DNA of 64,000 bases from Comamonas sp. Y33R10-2 (GTDB lineage: Bacteria > Pseudomonadota > Gammaproteobacteria > Burkholderiales > Burkholderiaceae_C), in NCBI RefSeq assembly GCF_019355935.1, contig NZ_CP079925.1:3658001-3722000 (forward strand), given 5' to 3'. Shown one piece after another: positions 6,417 through 13,730 of the stretch (within the stretch, counting starts at the first letter, position 1; each line of letters starts with the position of its first letter). The translations under genes were made by a program, and so were the position numbers. A model generated the notes under the pieces. The model searched no databases, was not told the origin of the DNA, and saw only the letters and a program-made list of their open reading frames with translations.

Positions 6417-7406
6417 GTGCTGGGCGGCAAAGAAGTTCTGCTGGCTGAACCACGCGGCTTTTGCGCCGGTGTGGACCGCGCCATCGAAATCGTTGAGCGT
6501 GCGCTCACCAAGTTCGGTGCGCCCATTTATGTGCGCCACGAGATCGTGCACAACACCTTTGTGGTCAACGACCTCAAGGCCAAAGGCGCTATCTTTATTG
6601 AAGAACTGGACGATGTGCCTGAAGGCGCGACGCTGATTTTCTCGGCGCATGGCGTCTCCAAAGCCGTGCAGCAAGAGGCGGTGCGCCGCGGCTTTTCCAT
6701 CTTTGATGCGACTTGCCCGCTGGTCACCAAGGTACACGTCGAAGTCGCCAAGCTGGCCAAGGAAGGCTACGAATTTCTGATGGTGGGCCACAAAGGTCAC
6801 CCAGAAGTCGAAGGCACCATGGGCCAATTGTCCGAAGGCATTCATCTGGTTGAAGATGAAGCGGACGTAGCCACAGTGGCTCCGCGCCAGACTGAAAAAC
6901 TGGCCGTGGTGACGCAGACTACTTTGTCGGTCGATGATGCTGCAGGCATCGTGGCGGCTATTCGTGCGCGTTTTCCGAATGTGCGTGAGCCCAAGCAGCA
7001 AGACATTTGCTACGCCACACAAAACCGCCAAGATGCCGTGAAGATTCTCGCGCCACAGGTGGATTTGGTGATCGTTGTGGGCAGCCCCACCAGCTCTAAC
7101 AGCAACCGCTTGCGTGAATTGGCGGCCCGACTGGGTACGCCTGCCTATATGGTGGACAACGCCAGTGAGCTTAAAGAAGAGTGGTTTGCTGATACCTCCC
7201 GCGTGGGCCTGACTGCGGGTGCCTCGGCTCCTGAAGTGCTGGTCAATGACGTCATCGCCCGTATCAAACTGCTGGGCGCTGTGGCTGTGCGCAAGATGGA
7301 CGGTATTGAAGAGACCATCAAATTCCCGCTGCCCAAGGGCCTGAAGATCGACGAGGCTACGGGCCTTGAGATCGAAGTGCGTAAGGCGCCCGAGACCGGA
7401 CACTAA
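6417..7406 (+). CDS. ispH: 4-hydroxy-3-methylbut-2-enyl diphosphate reductase
   Basis: 329 aa, starting at a GTG directly after the fkpB stop. This is the last enzyme of the MEP isoprenoid pathway: it reduces HMBPP to IPP and DMAPP with a [4Fe-4S] cluster. The three cluster cysteines are visible as C16 ([10 protein letters not shown]), C100 (DATCPLV) and C198 (DICYAT). The catalytic Glu region and the SSNSNRL motif near residue 222 are present. Cytoplasmic. Translational coupling with fkpB is likely. Confidence 0.97.
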
Positions 7407-7435
7407 GCCGTCGTTACACGATTGCTTTGTATTTC

Positions 7436-8905
<1,470 letters not shown>

Positions 8906-8915
8906 ATTTTTAGGT

Positions 8916-8936
8916 TAGAATAGATGCTTCGACACA
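8916..8936 (+). promoter_or_regulatory. tRNA-Ser promoter -10 element and leader
   Basis: TAGAAT (8916-8921) lies 15 bases before the tRNA. The extended sequence TTAGAATAGATGCTT recurs before two of the three tRNA-Arg genes (13406 and 13637 regions), suggesting one ancestral tRNA promoter type. No strong -35 is seen; it would fall inside the end of serS. Confidence 0.5.
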
Positions 8937-9027
<91 letters not shown>

Positions 9028-9068
9028 TCGCTCTAAGTCCTTGTTTTTAAAGGATTTATAGCAGAAAC

Positions 9069-9111
9069 GGCTTCAAGAAGGTATACCAAAAGGTGTATTA
9101 GTCTTGAAGCC
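9069..9111 (+). promoter_or_regulatory. Perfect inverted repeat over the integrase start
   Basis: GGCTTCAAG (9069-9077) and CTTGAAGCC (9103-9111) form a 9-bp stem with a 25-nt loop, followed by TTTTCTATTTT. The proposed TTG start codon (9104-9106) is inside the 3' arm, and the likely ribosome-binding site AAAGGTG (9088-9094) is in the loop. It can be read as a terminator for the tRNA transcript, as a structure limiting integrase translation, or as a recombinase-binding dyad. Confidence 0.55.
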
Positions 9112-10441
9112 TTTTCTATTTTCTAAGCGCCAACGTCACTACGTTAGATTCTTTGTTCCTACTGCGCTTCAGGAACACCTAGGCAAAAAATACCTGTTCT
9201 TTCCTTTGGGCACCGGAGCAGGGCACGAGGTGAGGCTCAAAGCCCATCAAATCGCCTACAACCTCACGAATACTTGTAATCAATTGCTAGAAAATCTAGC
9301 AATGAACAAGCCACGCCAAGACTTCGATTTGTCCAACATCCGAACCTATGAGATAGACCTCAAAAATGGCTACCTCAAAACGGATGGCACACCCGAAGAC
9401 CACCAAAGAGCCATAGAGGCCCTAAATACTCTCAAAGGGTTACAGGGGCTACAAGCACCCCAACCAGCCACACAAGCGCCAGAAACACCCCTTAAAACGG
9501 CTTCTAGGGGTATCAAGGTTGCGGAACTGGTAGAGCAATACTTCAAATTAAAGAAGCAACTCAAACCAGCAACCGCCATTGCCTATGGCAACGTGGCAAA
9601 AGAGTTTGCTCAATACATACGTAAGCAACACGTTGCAGACATTACGGAAAGCGATGTATTGCGCTATCAAAATTGGCTTGCTGAAAAAGGCAATGCAACA
9701 AGAACCATAGATAATAAACTTATCAATCTGCACGCATTGTTTAAGTTTGCTATCCAGCAAAAGCATTACGAAGGTGAGAACCCTGCTGCTAACAAAGCAT
9801 TGATGACAAAGAAGCAAAGGCTTAAAGAAGGCTATGGCATCTTTGAACGTGAAGAAATAGAAGCAATCTTTAATAGCGACTTTATGAAAGTTGCAAAAGA
9901 AAAAGATAAAGATTACTTTTATACATTGTTCATCACATTGTTCACAGGTATGCGGATCGGTGAAGTTACAAGCCTAGAAAAGAACCAATTTAAAACATCA
10001 GAAAACGGAACGCATTACATTCACATTCGTGATAGTAAAACACTTGCAGGACAGCGAGAAGTTCCAATTTTTAAAAAGTTCTATTACTTCATTAAGCCTT
10101 TTATTGATAGCAAGGAAGACAAGATTTTTAAGTATGAAGCAAAAGATGGTAAAGGCTCAGGAAATGCAGTAGGAAAGAAGTTTCCGAGGCATTTAAAAGC
10201 AGCAGGTGTTACACGTCAAAAATTAGTTTTTCATAGTCTGCGCAAGTTCGTAAACAATGAAATGAAAAGATTTAGCGTTGATGTTGAAGCGCGTTGCCAA
10301 CTTTTAGGACACGAGTTTGATAACGTAAATTCTAATATTTATTCTAATGAATTTACAATTGAATATTTAGAAGAAGCAACACAAGAGACTTTTAAAAGTA
10401 TCTATGAACTCAGCAAGAAACATATAACTATTGATTTTTGA
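9104..10441 (+). CDS. Tyrosine recombinase / site-specific integrase
   Basis: 445 aa with a TTG start preceded by AAAGGTG at good spacing; the frame is open upstream to 9062 without an ATG, so the start is uncertain. The N-terminus (RQRHYVRFFVPTALQEHLG) resembles the arm-binding head of phage-type integrases. A SAM-like core-binding domain lies at about 140-240 and the catalytic domain at 260-440. Active-site residues are visible: R284 (TGMRIGE), H377-x2-R380 (HSLRKF), H403 (LGHEF) and nucleophile Y413. It is complete and probably active. It is transcribed away from the adjacent tRNA-Ser att site. Its codon usage is A/T-rich compared with neighbouring genes, indicating acquisition. Confidence 0.95.
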   Translation: MKPFLFSKRQRHYVRFFVPTALQEHLGKKYLFFPLGTGAGHEVRLKAHQIAYNLTNTCNQLLENLAMNKPRQDFDLSNIRTYEIDLKNGYLKTDGTPEDHQRAIEALNTLKGLQGLQAPQPATQAPETPLKTASRGIKVAELVEQYFKLKKQLKPATAIAYGNVAKEFAQYIRKQHVADITESDVLRYQNWLAEKGNATRTIDNKLINLHALFKFAIQQKHYEGENPAANKALMTKKQRLKEGYGIFEREEIEAIFNSDFMKVAKEKDKDYFYTLFITLFTGMRIGEVTSLEKNQFKTSENGTHYIHIRDSKTLAGQREVPIFKKFYYFIKPFIDSKEDKIFKYEAKDGKGSGNAVGKKFPRHLKAAGVTRQKLVFHSLRKFVNNEMKRFSVDVEARCQLLGHEFDNVNSNIYSNEFTIEYLEEATQETFKSIYELSKKHITIDF

Positions 10442-10445
10442 AAAC

Positions 10446-10476
10446 TTGACAAGAAATTAAATATTGCTACTATAAA
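10446..10476 (+). promoter_or_regulatory. Candidate sigma-70 promoter after the integrase
   Basis: A perfect TTGACA at 10446-10451 is followed after 16 bp by TACTAT (10468-10473), or after 19 bp by TATAAA (10471-10476). It starts 4 bp after the integrase stop and points into the non-coding region. Sequence match only. Confidence 0.5.
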
Positions 10477-10479
10477 GAA

Positions 10480-10622
10480 ATAAAGACAGCCGAAAACTGT
10501 CTTTATAAAGCAAGTTTGATAACGCAACTATCAAAACTAACTGTTAAATAAAGATTAGCAGAACAGTTTTTAAAAGTCAAGAATATATAGAGCACGTTAT
10601 CAAATTTGATGACGTGTTTTTT
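10480..10622 (+). ncRNA. Candidate small structured RNA of about 140 nt
   Basis: Directly after the candidate promoter, four stem-loops follow with no open frame. The first is a perfect 10-bp stem (10480-10489 with 10497-10506, loop CCGAAAA). The second is 10513-10521 with 10529-10538, with one bulge. The third is a 7-bp stem (10539-10545 with 10562-10568). The fourth is a strong intrinsic terminator at 10593-10616 followed by six T. TTTGATAACG (10515-10524) is also complementary to CGTTATCAAA (10595-10604) in the terminator stem, so an alternative fold that would open the terminator is possible. It could instead be only the integrase 3' UTR. No known RNA family is recognised. Confidence 0.45.
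10593..10622 (+). terminator. Intrinsic terminator
   Basis: CACGTTATCAAATTTGATGACGTG folds back on itself through a palindrome (one T-G wobble), followed by TTTTTT. It is oriented to end plus-strand transcripts from the integrase or the candidate small RNA. Confidence 0.75.
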
Positions 10623-11640
10623 ATTGTCCAAAAAGTTTTTAAGCATTGTTCTAGGTAAAAATAAATGCCAATCTTATATTTAAGCGTCTGAAATCACGGT
10701 TCGGTATAAGTTAAATTAAGTTGCAAGAATGAGATACTGGCAAAGCAATAAGGGAAGACTAAAGCAAAACCCCGCTAGTTTGGAATGAAGTCCAAGAATT
10801 TGTCGAGTTGATACGCTTCATTAAGTTATCAATGCCTTTCAGTCATACGGGCGTAAGAAATTACAAACATAGAAGACAGAAAAAGGTAAAGTCCCACCAA
10901 AGTTTTTTAACTGCGGTAAGGGAGACTTTGCCTTTAATCTCCAAGCGTAAGTGCGGAGATTGAAGGCAATAATACAGAATACAAAGATAGATAAATATTA
11001 GCGTAAGCAATGTATTAGTTAACAACAAAATAATAAGAAATAAAAAATTGAACAGAGCAGTATAAAACTATGAGTGAAGAATGAACGAATAGATTTTATA
11101 TCTCTCTGTTGTCCTGCTGACCAAGCAGTCCCCCGGAGGGGCGGAGGGGAGAAAACCGCGCGTATACGTGTGTATGTGTGAATACGCAGGCACATACACA
11201 AGCACAATACACAGATATAAGAATAAAACAGCAAGTAGTCAAATTAAGCCAAATAACGCCATAAATTTGAAAAATTATTGTCTAGGTGGGTAAATTATCA
11301 ACTTGGGTATAAATAAGCGCTTAAATGTCTTTAAATTGTTCTTGTTCATCTTTTAGAACGACAAGGCGTTATCCTTAGATAGCCGAACAGTGCGTAAGCA
11401 CCCATAGCGGAGCGAAAAAAATAACCATATTAAAAGTGTTACTTTTACGTTGGAAGAAAACACAACAAAAAAGAAATAAAGAAGGTTTTCGGCTGTTTAG
11501 GGGGGGAGTTACTTTCACGACTTTGGAAGTGGAAGTAACCCCCCAGACCTCCGCTTAGGAGGTCTTCAACTCGCAGAGTTGATACAGAAAATTTTCTAAT
11601 AGAAAATTTTTTGAAATAACTTATAAACTAATCAAGGCTA
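10623..11640. other. Hairpin-dense non-coding region, candidate large structured RNA or origin
   Basis: About 1 kb without a credible gene; the only longer frame (11019-11234, minus) is low-complexity. Inverted repeats seen by eye: 10784-10790 with 10816-10822, interleaved with 10808-10813 and 10827-10832; 10882-10893 with 10924-10935; 10930-10942 with 10955-10967 (13 bp, one wobble); 11051-11067 with 11094-11110; 11169-11178 with 11191-11200 (10 bp perfect); 11381-11387 with 11488-11494; GTGC-GTAA-GCAC at 11390-11401; 11431-11437 with 11441-11447; 11501-11518 with 11529-11544; 11545-11552 with 11558-11565 (8 bp perfect); 11567-11572 with 11576-11581; 11588-11596 with 11602-11610. The heptamer GCGTAAG occurs four times. 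Function is not known; the structure calls are not from a folding program. Confidence 0.5.
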
Positions 11641-11644
11641 TGTC

Positions 11645-11840
11645 AAAAGAAACATCAAAGTAAATTGCTTTGACTATTGCAATGAAACATCAAAGTAAAT
11701 TTCAAGGTAAATTGCTTTGACTATTTTAATGAAACATCAAAGTAAATTTCAAAGTAAATTGCTTTGACTATCTCAATGAAATATCAAAGTAAATCTCAAT
11801 CTAAATTGTTTTGACAATCTCATTGAAGCATCAAAAAAAC
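11645..11840. repeat. Tandem 47-bp iteron-like repeats
   Basis: Three full 47-bp units start at 11681, 11728 and 11775 (to 11821), each beginning AATGAAACATCAAAG or a close variant. A shortened unit precedes them (11645-11680) and a partial one follows (from 11822). Inside each unit TCAAAG and CTTTGA (or TTTTGA) form an inverted pair about 30 bp apart, so each unit can be a hairpin or a protein-binding dyad. There are no unique spacers, so it is not a CRISPR array. Similar arrays are iterons of plasmid origins or recombinase/regulator binding sites. Confidence 0.8.
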
Positions 11841-11956
11841 ATCCTAATTCTTATACACACTTGCAATTTACTGACGTAAATCGCGATGGTTTTTTGTCTT
11901 TAACTCTTGCTAATGCTGGTTGTTTTTCAAAGTTGGTTGAAATTTTTTAAAAATTA

Positions 11957-12023
11957 AAACCAAGTTTTAAGTTCTTTGAAAGTCTTGTAAATATTGAATA
12001 AACTTGGTTTCAACTTCCAAGTT
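11957..12023. repeat. Competing inverted repeats
   Basis: AAACCAAGTTT (11957-11967) is a perfect 11-bp complement of AAACTTGGTTT (12000-12010). The second arm can also pair with CCAAGTT at 12017-12023 (7 bp, 9-nt loop). Only one of the two hairpins can form at a time, as in attenuators; as DNA, they are three copies of one binding motif. Confidence 0.55.
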
Positions 12024-12071
12024 AATACTAATTAAAGATGAATTAAATAGATTAGAAAGAAAAATATAGAT

Positions 12072-12144
12072 GTGAATTTTTTGAGTGGTTCGCAAAAATT
12101 CACGAAAATTCATAAGCGAACCACTTGTCCAATAAAAGTATTGG
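12072..12144. repeat. Interlocked inverted repeats with pseudoknot geometry
   Basis: GTGAATTTTT (12072-12081) pairs perfectly with AAAAATTCAC (12094-12103). The 10 bases just before the second arm, AGTGGTTCGC (12084-12093), pair perfectly with GCGAACCACT (12116-12125). The order a-b-a'-b' with no base between b and a' is an H-type pseudoknot layout. A further 6-bp hairpin, CCAATA with TATTGG, follows at 12129-12144. GAACCA recurs at 12119, 12167 and 12174. Confidence 0.6.
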
Positions 12145-12219
12145 AAACATTGAATAGTTCACTTTTGAACCATGAACCACCACCTAAAGAGTAAAAAACT
12201 CTAATGTGGGGTGATTGCT

Positions 12220-12678
12220 CTACACCCCATTTCTTTGGAAATATTGGTTCCATTCATTCATACATTCTTGAGCCAATGCAAAACAACACTCCTCTCCTCG
12301 CTCAGTTTCAATTGTTGCTTTATCAAGGCGAGCCATACTGTGGCTTTTATCTTCCGGCATAGAGACTGAGATGGTGCTAGTAATTTGAAAAATTCCTATT
12401 TCTGAATTACTTCTTCTTCTTGTAAGAGTTTTATGCTTTAGACGATTACATATATCAGCACATATCCTTAATGCTGGGGTGTCTTTAATAAAATTTTCTA
12501 CATCGCTGAATGAAGAGCATTCTGGAGAGTTTTTGACCCAGTCTTTTAGGTGGTAGCAAATTTCAAAGAATGAAAATAATTCAAACTCGACGTTTCCACC
12601 ATATTCTAAAGATACTCCTTCTCTAATAAAACGGAGTTTGCTGAATTGATATTGAAGCCTTGCTCTCTGGTATCTCAA
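12220..12678 (-). CDS. Small HEPN-like hypothetical protein, island cargo
   Basis: 152 aa. The start is a TTG at 12678, only 4 bases after a perfect AGGAGG ribosome-binding site (12683-12688), which argues that the frame is real although no ATG fits. The sequence is not firmly recognised. The helical segment FFEICYHLKDWVKN and the later ADICNRLKHKTLTRR resemble a family of small HEPN-like proteins found in accessory regions (helix with His-Leu-x-Asp-Trp, then Asp-Ile-Cys-Asn-x2-Lys-His). HEPN proteins are often RNases in toxin or defence systems, but the canonical R-x4-6-H motif is not clearly present. It is the only cargo gene seen in the island. The function is an open question. Confidence 0.65.
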   Translation of the reverse strand: MRYQRARLQYQFSKLRFIREGVSLEYGGNVEFELFSFFEICYHLKDWVKNSPECSSFSDVENFIKDTPALRICADICNRLKHKTLTRRRSNSEIGIFQITSTISVSMPEDKSHSMARLDKATIETERGEECCFALAQECMNEWNQYFQRNGV

Positions 12679-12688
12679 AATGCCTCCT

Positions 12689-13111
12689 AATAAAAAAAAC
12701 CGATAATCCTACAATCATCCTCTATAGCTGGATAACTTGCACAGGCTTACACATTTTTGTGTCGTAAGCAATTGGGAGGCGAATAAATCGCCGTTTTTGA
12801 GTGTGGTTCCTGTCAGCGACGTAGGGTAACTAGCAAACAAGAGCAGCAAGACACTTGCGCACTTCGTTTGCCTGCTCGCTCATTTTTTTGATGAACAAAA
12901 AAACAAACGACCTTTGTTTACTCTTGTATCTTATGTCTTATATAAGATATATGATTTTATGGAGAATAAGAATTATTCAAATAAATGTAGGCAAAATTCC
13001 TAAGATTTTTGGTGTTCTACCAAAAGTTCTACCAATTTTTGGCATACAATAGCGTCTTCAACAGCGGCAAGTCCTTGTTTTAACAAGCCTTCTTGTTGGG
13101 TATGACATCTG
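12689..13111. other. Non-coding right end of the island
   Basis: No credible gene. A hairpin at about 12749-12773 has GCTTAC/GTAAGC arms, and a terminator-like GGCGA-ATAAA-TCGCC-GTTTTT (plus strand) lies at about 12778-12798. TCTACCAA occurs twice near 13018-13035, and TACCAAAA matches the left end near 9084, so these may be recombinase arm sites. A TACAAT box at 13045-13050 is a possible promoter toward the tRNA-Arg genes. Confidence 0.4.
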
Positions 13112-13129
13112 TCCCACCCTCTCCGCCAA
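13112..13129 (+). other. attR, right attachment repeat
   Basis: Copy 2 of the 18-bp repeat identical to the tRNA-Ser 3' end. It ends 2 bases before the first tRNA-Arg gene. Confidence 0.85.
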
Positions 13130-13131
13130 AT

Positions 13132-13208
13132 GCGGCTGTAGCTCAGTTGGATAGAGTACTTGGCTACGAACCAAGGGGTCGTGGGTTCAATTCCTGCCAG
13201 CCGCACCA
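13132..13208 (+). tRNA. tRNA-Arg(ACG), copy 1
   Basis: 77 nt with encoded CCA. Acceptor GCGGCTG/CAGCCGC; anticodon stem CTTGG/CCAAG with loop CTACGAA, anticodon ACG (inosine-modified, reads CGU/CGC/CGA). Only 2 bases separate it from attR, so the promoter used before the island entered was probably that of tRNA-Ser; it must now depend on an island promoter. Confidence 0.96.
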
Positions 13209-13214
13209 AACGTT

Positions 13215-13247
13215 AAATCCCAGAGTAGAAATGCTCTGGGATTTTTT
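13215..13247 (+). terminator. Terminator of tRNA-Arg copy 1
   Basis: AAATCCCAGAG and CTCTGGGATTT form an 11-bp stem with an 8-nt loop and a T-run. Confidence 0.85.
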
Positions 13248-13406
13248 CGTTTTTCTGTTCAGTTTTTACTTGGCTTTTTTGTATGGAGCATGTGCTGCAA
13301 CCCACACTTTGCATATGAGCAAGGCATGTAATCAAAAAATCGTCGCTTAATTGACCTCCTGAAGGTGGAGATCGATGTTTTTGAAAAACGGTTTCTAAAA
13401 ATATAT

Positions 13407-13412
13407 TAGAAT
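13407..13412 (+). promoter_or_regulatory. -10 element of tRNA-Arg copy 2
   Basis: TAGAAT, 10 bases before the tRNA, within TTAGAATAGATAGCTT, nearly the same as before tRNA-Ser and copy 3. Confidence 0.45.
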
Positions 13413-13422
13413 AGATAGCTTA

Positions 13423-13499
13423 GCGGCTGTAGCTCAGTTGGATAGAGTACTTGGCTACGAACCAAGGGGTCGTGGGTTCAATTCCTGCCAGCCGCACCA
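13423..13499 (+). tRNA. tRNA-Arg(ACG), copy 2
   Basis: Identical in all 77 bases to copy 1, CCA encoded. It has its own upstream TAGAAT box and downstream terminator, so it is a separate transcription unit. Confidence 0.96.
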
Positions 13500-13505
13500 A
13501 ACGAC

Positions 13506-13538
13506 AAGCCTCAGAATTTTCTAGTTCTGAGGCTTTTT
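13506..13538 (+). terminator. Terminator of tRNA-Arg copy 2
   Basis: AAGCCTCAGAA and TTCTGAGGCTT stem followed by a T-run; nearly the same as after copy 3. Confidence 0.85.
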
Positions 13539-13637
13539 CGTTGGGATACTGCTTTCGGTAGTTTTAGCTTTTCCGGCCACATCGATGTATTTTTAAGAAA
13601 ACTTCGGGTTTTTACTAGGTTGGCTTAAAAATCCGAA

Positions 13638-13643
13638 TAGAAT
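13638..13643 (+). promoter_or_regulatory. -10 element of tRNA-Arg copy 3
   Basis: TAGAAT, 10 bases before the tRNA, in the same context as copy 2. Confidence 0.45.
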
Positions 13644-13653
13644 AGATGGCTTA

Positions 13654-13730
13654 GCGGCTGTAGCTCAGTTGGATAGAGTACTTGGCTACGAACCAAGGGG
13701 TCGTGGGTTCAATTCCTGCCAGCCGCACCA
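13654..13730 (+). tRNA. tRNA-Arg(ACG), copy 3
   Basis: Identical in all 77 bases to copies 1 and 2. The repeat between copies 2 and 3 extends from the -10 box through the terminator, indicating a recent tandem duplication of about 231 bp. Confidence 0.96.

Follow-up and report, generated by a model that had tools for sequence, protein, structure and literature searches.

ColE1 has a long structured non-coding RNA, RNA II, and encodes an antisense RNA, RNA I, over the 5′ end of RNA II. In pT181 and pIP501 it is the rep mRNA that is attenuated, by an antisense RNA and a pre-emptor, as set out in the available part of PMC5703833. GOLLD and ROOL are large pseudoknotted RNAs of mobile elements that often lie near tRNAs and have an unexplained function, by the account in the accessible part of PMC12286853. 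The locus described here lies in a stretch of 64,000 nucleotides (nt) from Comamonas sp. Y33R10-2 (NZ_CP079925.1, positions 3,658,001 to 3,722,000), called the window below. An 18-bp repeat of a tRNA 3′ end recurs there at 13112-13129, so that 9010-13129 is an integrated element of 4.1 kb, bounded by 18-bp attachment (att) repeats. Within it, the segment 10672-10965 is predicted to encode a structured RNA, the core of which has two interlocked pseudoknots. Comparison of the sequences brings out the structure and strand of this RNA, its distribution in mobile elements, the layout of its leader and one exchange of the RNA for a rep gene. The RNA appears to represent a previously uncatalogued family that is carried by small integrative and mobilizable elements in Burkholderiales. 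With its strong support, this family would join the few large RNAs listed for mobile elements of bacteria, and the regulatory context of the RNA points to a testable role. We propose, at a probability of about 40% and partly by analogy, that the RNA is gated by an antisense attenuator and serves replication, or copy control and maintenance, of the excised element.

How well does the predicted structure hold in relatives? In total, 14 loci in 13 genomes were compared: the window and 13 loci in 12 other Burkholderiales genomes, where they sit in integrative elements and plasmid-like contigs. The core has the strand order P2a-PKa-P2b-P3a-P5a-P3b-PKb-P4-P5b (Table 1). Helix PK pairs the P2 loop with a later strand and P5 pairs the P3 loop with a strand behind P4, and the two pseudoknots therefore interlock. 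An initial annotation of this DNA had named covariation among homologues as a check, and across the 14 sequences 24 of the 24 core pairs have changed on both sides (mean of 14.7 in shuffles, at most 11 in slid versions). Pairing extends to 98.5% of cells against at most 41.1% in slid controls, and covariation reaches 0.963 against 0.302 shuffled and at most 0.124 slid. No model used in fitting the alignments contained PK or P5; these two helices are the cleaner test, whereas fitting leans towards the structure for P2, P3 and P4. For PK and P5 alone the 14 sequences give 96.8% paired cells and a covariation of 1.010, with slid versions at 0.152 or less; in a 9-sequence alignment, fitted by a model that held neither helix, they pair in 99.0% of cells and 9 of their 11 pairs show two-sided changes. 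That model-fitted alignment pairs in 99.5% of cells overall, and a 7-sequence MAFFT alignment has 100% of cells paired in the five helices and 71% in a sixth helix, P6. A MAFFT alignment (A7) that misplaced G025 and G034 was kept out of the counts, and a first RNAalifold model from three sequences had missed the pseudoknots.

Which strand is the RNA? Among 336 core cells there are 20 G-U against 2 A-C, and the integrase-sense (plus) strand is therefore read as the RNA. Its length is about 300 nt, or 300-420 nt in relatives as judged by eye. Outside the core, the GG-TA-GGG type motif of the 3′ domain is found by pattern in 13 of 14 loci, one of which, G034, needed a pattern of its own. The arms around it form 124 of 126 pairs against a mean of 62 for swapped arms, a figure biased by the prior choice of the best arms, and one that takes in different stems for some loci. 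A motif of a C-run, a G-run, ACGGA or CGGA and a further G-run recurs behind the RNA by eye, at about 11126-11151 in the window and at about 8927-8952 in L036, 9728-9755 in L034 and 8135-8160 (minus) in L033.

The homologues were collected in several steps of sensitivity. By blastn, 4 of 53 genomes of the genus match, namely the source genome, G011, G005 and G020, the last in module 3 only (11358-11424 in the window); the 5′ leader recurs in G011 and G005, and G002 carries a homologue that blastn did not report. Covariance model R1, made for the 5′ part, yielded G018 and a second G020 locus (6/53 genus genomes) and G432 (3/399). The core model R2 reached 8/53 genus genomes by adding G025 and G034. 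Model R3 gave 4/399 at family level, adding G401, and 7/399 at order level, adding G692, G651 and two G057 loci. These 399-genome searches scored 8-9 candidates per genome, and the frequencies are lower limits. In the genus of G432 the RNA is found in 1 of 6 genomes, G432 itself. A class-wide draw gave 2/68, the window and one match inside a protein open reading frame (ORF), with no true copy of the RNA in the 67 other genomes. Candidates in G827 (L060, E 0.009), G833 (L061, E 0.035) and G855 (L063/L064, E 0.003) passed the search thresholds and were dropped as lying inside protein ORFs; their rows stand only in alignment A9, which is uncounted, and all 14 others were kept. An 18-mer scan of genome contigs returned four stretches: the Comamonas and Delftia copies and two candidates, in WOR-3 and Melainabacteria, that were dropped (13.2 bits with R2; 18 and 10 bits with R1). 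No match to 10440-12200 was found by blastn among phages and plasmids, and exact and degenerate patterns gave 0 matches each in IMG/VR.

Is the family already known under another name? Scans of 11 of the 14 loci (all but L007, L024 and L036) gave no Rfam match at the RNA; they include the window at the gathering score and nine other loci. At E ≤10, window 10440-12210 and L008 10700-12430 gave 14 and 9 matches, all below gathering scores. GOLLD (RF02032) and ROOL (RF03087) are absent among those matches; the initial annotation cites them as precedents, and they are such in kind only. Group I and group II introns, RNase P and tmRNA were set aside, there being no Rfam match to them at the RNA; the group II matches of L058 fall at 7-9 kb, at a distance from its RNA at 1305-1409. 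No description of the RNA was found in Rfam 15 or in the literature surveyed, as judged by title and abstract start. GOLLD and ROOL differ in being larger (one ROOL of 659 nt, many GOLLD above 800 nt) and phage- or prophage-borne, as far as the available part of PMC12286853 goes. An antisense attenuator before a non-coding RNA and the exchange with rep also distinguish the present RNA from RNAs of their kind.

The leader between the integrase gene and the RNA has a sense promoter, an opposed antisense promoter and an intrinsic terminator before the product. The antisense site occurs exactly once in 8 of the 14 RNA loci (G000, which is the window, G011, G005, G002, G018, G025, G651 and G401) and exactly once in the rep leader of G020. 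Shuffles of these nine leaders hold it in 6-26 of 500 cases (1.2-5.2%), and shuffles of all 15 stretches in 2-26 of 500. In 9/9 leaders its -35 box begins 10-18 nt ahead of the terminator arm. A scan finds the sense promoter in 8/9 (not in G651) and the sense terminator between antisense target and product also in 8/9, with that of G401 seen by eye. The pre-emptor duplex is matched by few of 500 shuffles in five of the nine leaders, G018 (0), G020rep (2), G005 (4), G401 (7) and G002 (12), and stands out less in the related G000 (24) and G011 (47). This layout, with a pre-emptor-like repeat in part of the leaders, resembles that of pT181 and pIP501 as given in the available part of PMC5703833. 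It differs from their description there in that the product in 8 loci is a structured non-coding RNA and not rep mRNA, that the hosts are integrative elements of Burkholderiales and that antisense action is read from the layout. A long structured non-coding RNA with an antisense RNA over its 5′ end also recalls ColE1, with the difference that an intrinsic terminator here stands between antisense target and RNA; this likeness is one of layout. A 21-nt stretch behind the RNA, 11476-11496, is 90% complementary to the leader hairpin 10486-10506 and is present in G011 too; it is perhaps a decoy or a second target of the antisense RNA.

Table 1. Features of the integrated element and its target in the window
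Feature	Position	Strand	Basis or remark
tRNA-Ser(CGA), integration target	8937..9026	+	ARAGORN and Rfam tRNA
att repeat TCCCACCCTCTCCGCCAA, left element end, 3′ end of tRNA-Ser(CGA)	9010..9027		exact 18-bp direct repeat with 13112-13129
Tyrosine integrase, 445 aa	9104..10441	+	Pfam PF00589 E 8.6e-13; phrog_1 E 2.8e-37
Sense leader promoter TTGACA-16-TACTAT	10446..10473	+
Intrinsic terminator of predicted antisense RNA, also 5′ hairpin of sense leader	10480..10506	-
Pre-emptor-like segment, 13/14 nt complementary to terminator 5′ arm 10595-10608	10511..10524	+	inverted repeat I17
Antisense promoter TTGACT-17-TAATCT	10552..10580	-	-10 box too weak for stricter scan
Intrinsic terminator of sense leader (attenuator)	10589..10620	+
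RNA 5′ domain: P1 and motif CGTC-N-CWCGRTTCG (10685-10703)	10673..10710	+	motif pattern in 11/14 loci, absent from G401, G057a, G057b
RNA core	10718..10807	+	14-sequence covariation
Core helix P2	10720-10724/10745-10749	+
Core helix PK	10736-10741/10774-10779	+
Core helix P3	10752-10754/10771-10773	+
Core helix P5	10764-10768/10799-10803	+
Core helix P4	10780-10784/10791-10795	+
RNA 3′ domain: stem GGTAAAGTC/GACTTTGCC around GGTAAGGG (10915-10922)	10885..10932	+	GG-TA-GGG type motif, complementary arms
Variable segment	10971..11337	n/a	no blastn match in L007, L008, L009
Module 3 with GTGCGTAAGCAC hairpin	11358..11424	+	also in G011; directly behind rep in G020
Four successive hairpins, last T-rich	11500..11618	+
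Candidate origin of transfer (oriT)	11830..12014	n/a	76% identical to DNA upstream of TrwB-like coupling-protein and TrwC relaxase genes, Delftia integrative and conjugative element (ICE)
Right att repeat	13112..13129		exact 18-bp direct repeat of 9010-9027

What might such a leader control? A G020 element in the same tRNA-Ser offers a lead: its integrase is related (53% aa), and a leader of the same kind is followed there by a Rep_1 rolling-circle initiator. The 70-nt module 3 lies directly behind the stop codon of that rep gene, and in the window it lies behind the RNA. With the same leader type before and module 3 behind, rep and RNA thus hold equivalent positions, in one pair of elements. 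Among the scanned ORFs of RNA elements, which are a subset, no replication initiator was found except in L057. Relatives of the G020 Rep occur in 155 plasmid records; the idea that the attenuator arrived with Rep from small plasmids was dropped after three of them had been examined over the 420 nt upstream of the match. The G020 sister element itself (L009 2573-13571, 10.9 kb, same tRNA-Ser) carries an integrase, a C5 methyltransferase-like ORF (by eye), the Rep_1 initiator and a TrwC relaxase.

From a leader of the copy-counting type and a rep gene in the RNA's slot in the sister element, we infer that the RNA is a replication or maintenance factor of the excised element. A short antisense RNA would start near 10545 and pair with the leader; this pairing would free the 5′ arm of the terminator from the pre-emptor, and transcription would stop at 10620. 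When the antisense RNA is scarce, transcription would read through into the RNA, which would then serve the replication or maintenance of the excised circle under copy control, perhaps as its initiator or primer. Transcription, antisense termination at 10620, read-through and the function of the RNA are all things that we infer from the DNA. A bolder form of the proposal, which we find unlikely, is that extrachromosomal replication of these Rep-less integrative elements is started by the RNA with its two pseudoknots, for which a rolling-circle Rep gene can be substituted behind an antisense attenuator of the same type; the RNA would then form an RNA-based initiator class unrelated to ColE1 RNA II. 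If the RNA did drive replication of excised islands, a structured RNA could stand in for a Rep protein, and this would explain how very small Rep-less islands persist outside the chromosome.

Several observations weigh against the proposal of an attenuated replication or maintenance RNA. The functional part draws on one rep/RNA exchange and on analogy. On the plasmid-like contig L057, which also encodes a resolvase and a ParA-type ATPase, the RNA coexists with a GPA-type Rep and thus need not take the place of one. The three small plasmids with relatives of the G020 Rep are without this leader, and blastn with four RNAs (the window and three others) gave no match in the PLSDB plasmids. The antisense site is absent from six of the 14 RNA loci. 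A scan places an antisense terminator at the first hairpin in only 5 of the 9 leaders (G000, G011, G002, G025 and G020rep), and the antisense terminators found for G005, G018, G651 and G401 are outside the leader. The pre-emptor duplex is weak in G025 (103/500), G651 (60/500) and G011 (47/500). As to the structure, further pair types, one of five covariation measures, are not above shuffles for PK and P5 alone (182/500) or in the 7-sequence set (179/500).

Does the RNA serve transfer instead? The main rival is that it is a mobilization factor, trans-acting or linked to oriT, whose dose is set by the attenuator, in the manner of the sgm-sRNA of Salmonella genomic island 1 (SGI1). We think this somewhat unlikely. 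Nine of the 14 RNA loci have a relaxase-family match in the neighbourhood: six of the MobA/VirD2 type (L047 just below the Pfam cut-off), two of Mob_Pre and TrwC in the Delftia ICE. In the available part of PMC9299015, sgm-sRNA is needed for transfer and originates from a longer transcript in which a small ORF is included, and a sequence resembling a terminator lies close to the sgm-sRNA promoter. The same part places it in a single island family and makes no mention of a double-pseudoknot core, and the comparison is one of description. On the other side, no relaxase is seen in the two smallest elements (window and G011), which have kept the RNA, the RNA accompanies three different relaxase families, and the leader before rep in G020 suggests copy control.

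The RNA might also be a cis-acting leader or riboregulator, a 5′ untranslated region (UTR) of the variable small ORFs behind it, which seems improbable to us. Such ORFs are present in G011 (101 aa), G005 (123 aa) and G002 (91 aa), and about 600 nt further on at the second G020 locus (109 aa) and in G432 (103 aa). By eye, however, they look unrelated except for the G020/G432 pair, three that were scanned have no Pfam match, and the window is without an ORF of at least 80 aa at that place.

The initial annotation had described 10623-11640, which begins directly behind the intrinsic terminator 10589-10620, as hairpin-dense and non-coding, and as a candidate for one large structured RNA; it mentioned neither the att sites nor the upstream antisense attenuator nor the rep/RNA exchange. 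Its description of the DNA is borne out. In all 14 loci each of the six frames has at least one stop within 240 bp of the core start, and a shuffle test, which it had named as a possible refutation, puts the fold of 10620-11610 (+) at -264.1 kcal/mol against -205.6 ± 7.5 for 20 dinucleotide shuffles (z -7.8). The GTAA hairpin it saw exists (GTGCGTAAGCAC at 11390-11401). For the long-range pairing it proposed, AGCCGAA at 11381-11387 is complementary to TTCGGCT at 11488-11494, but the pairing is doubtful because the partner also falls within a longer inverted match (10486-10506 with 11476-11496, 21 nt, 90%) and the nearest relative has CGCCGGA as its 11381-11387 arm. Its idea of a new structured RNA carried by a mobile element stands for 10672-10965 (core 10718-10807), with 13 further loci, two-sided changes and no Rfam match; one continuous RNA of 1 kb has no such support, since the rest of that kilobase is variable or is common to too few loci for a covariation test, and in G011, G005 and G002 small ORFs come after the RNA.

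The minus strand of 10620-11610 folds with z -7.2, close to the plus strand, so that folding alone leaves the strand undecided. Could the hairpins then act as folded single-stranded DNA, as an oriT or single-strand origin? For the locus as a whole we judge this very improbable. The near-equal folding of the two strands fits it, and so does the position of the strongest hairpins, 11338-11620, next to the candidate oriT; the G-U excess in the core and the place of the core behind a promoter and an attenuator speak against it. These counter-points concern the core, and for 11338-11620 the single-stranded DNA explanation stands open. By part, z is -3.2 for 10672-10970, -3.4 for 10971-11337 and -8.4 for 11338-11620. 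Blastn of the middle segment against G011, G005 and the G020 sister element, the three compared, found no counterpart. The last and most stable segment is common at length to G011 only (blastn, 53 genus genomes), with one two-sided change among 82 pairs between window and G011, and about 70 nt of it also lie behind the rep gene of G020; it could be a 3′ part of the RNA, an origin or an oriT. From its resemblance to the Delftia DNA, 11830-12014 may be a borrowed oriT. Between these segments, at 11643-11830, a 47-bp AT-rich direct repeat in about four copies lies behind the RNA region and could represent iterons or a binding array.

Besides the integrase, the element has a single small ORF (12220-12678, 152 aa) with no family match, and is otherwise long non-coding DNA. 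Of the 53 genus genomes, 5 have a related integrase, the source genome among them. In G011, G020 and G002 it sits behind the same tRNA-Ser, in G006 the DNA stretch retrieved has no tRNA, and in G432, of a different genus, it is again behind a tRNA-Ser. Three tRNA-Arg(ACG) genes in tandem (13132-13730) stand directly past the right element end. Other neighbours were seen in the relatives. On L058, the contig of the second G057 RNA copy, an ALIL pseudoknot and group II intron fragments lie at 7106-9397, several kb away from the RNA, and an RNA-carrying plasmid-like contig of G057 has an ORF with a TNT-type toxin domain (Pfam PF14021; L057 6817-7980). In G692 (L055 6353-8405) the RNA has as neighbours a DNA methylase and a protein whose match to a BsaWI-type endonuclease falls short of the Pfam cut-off, a possible restriction-modification cargo.
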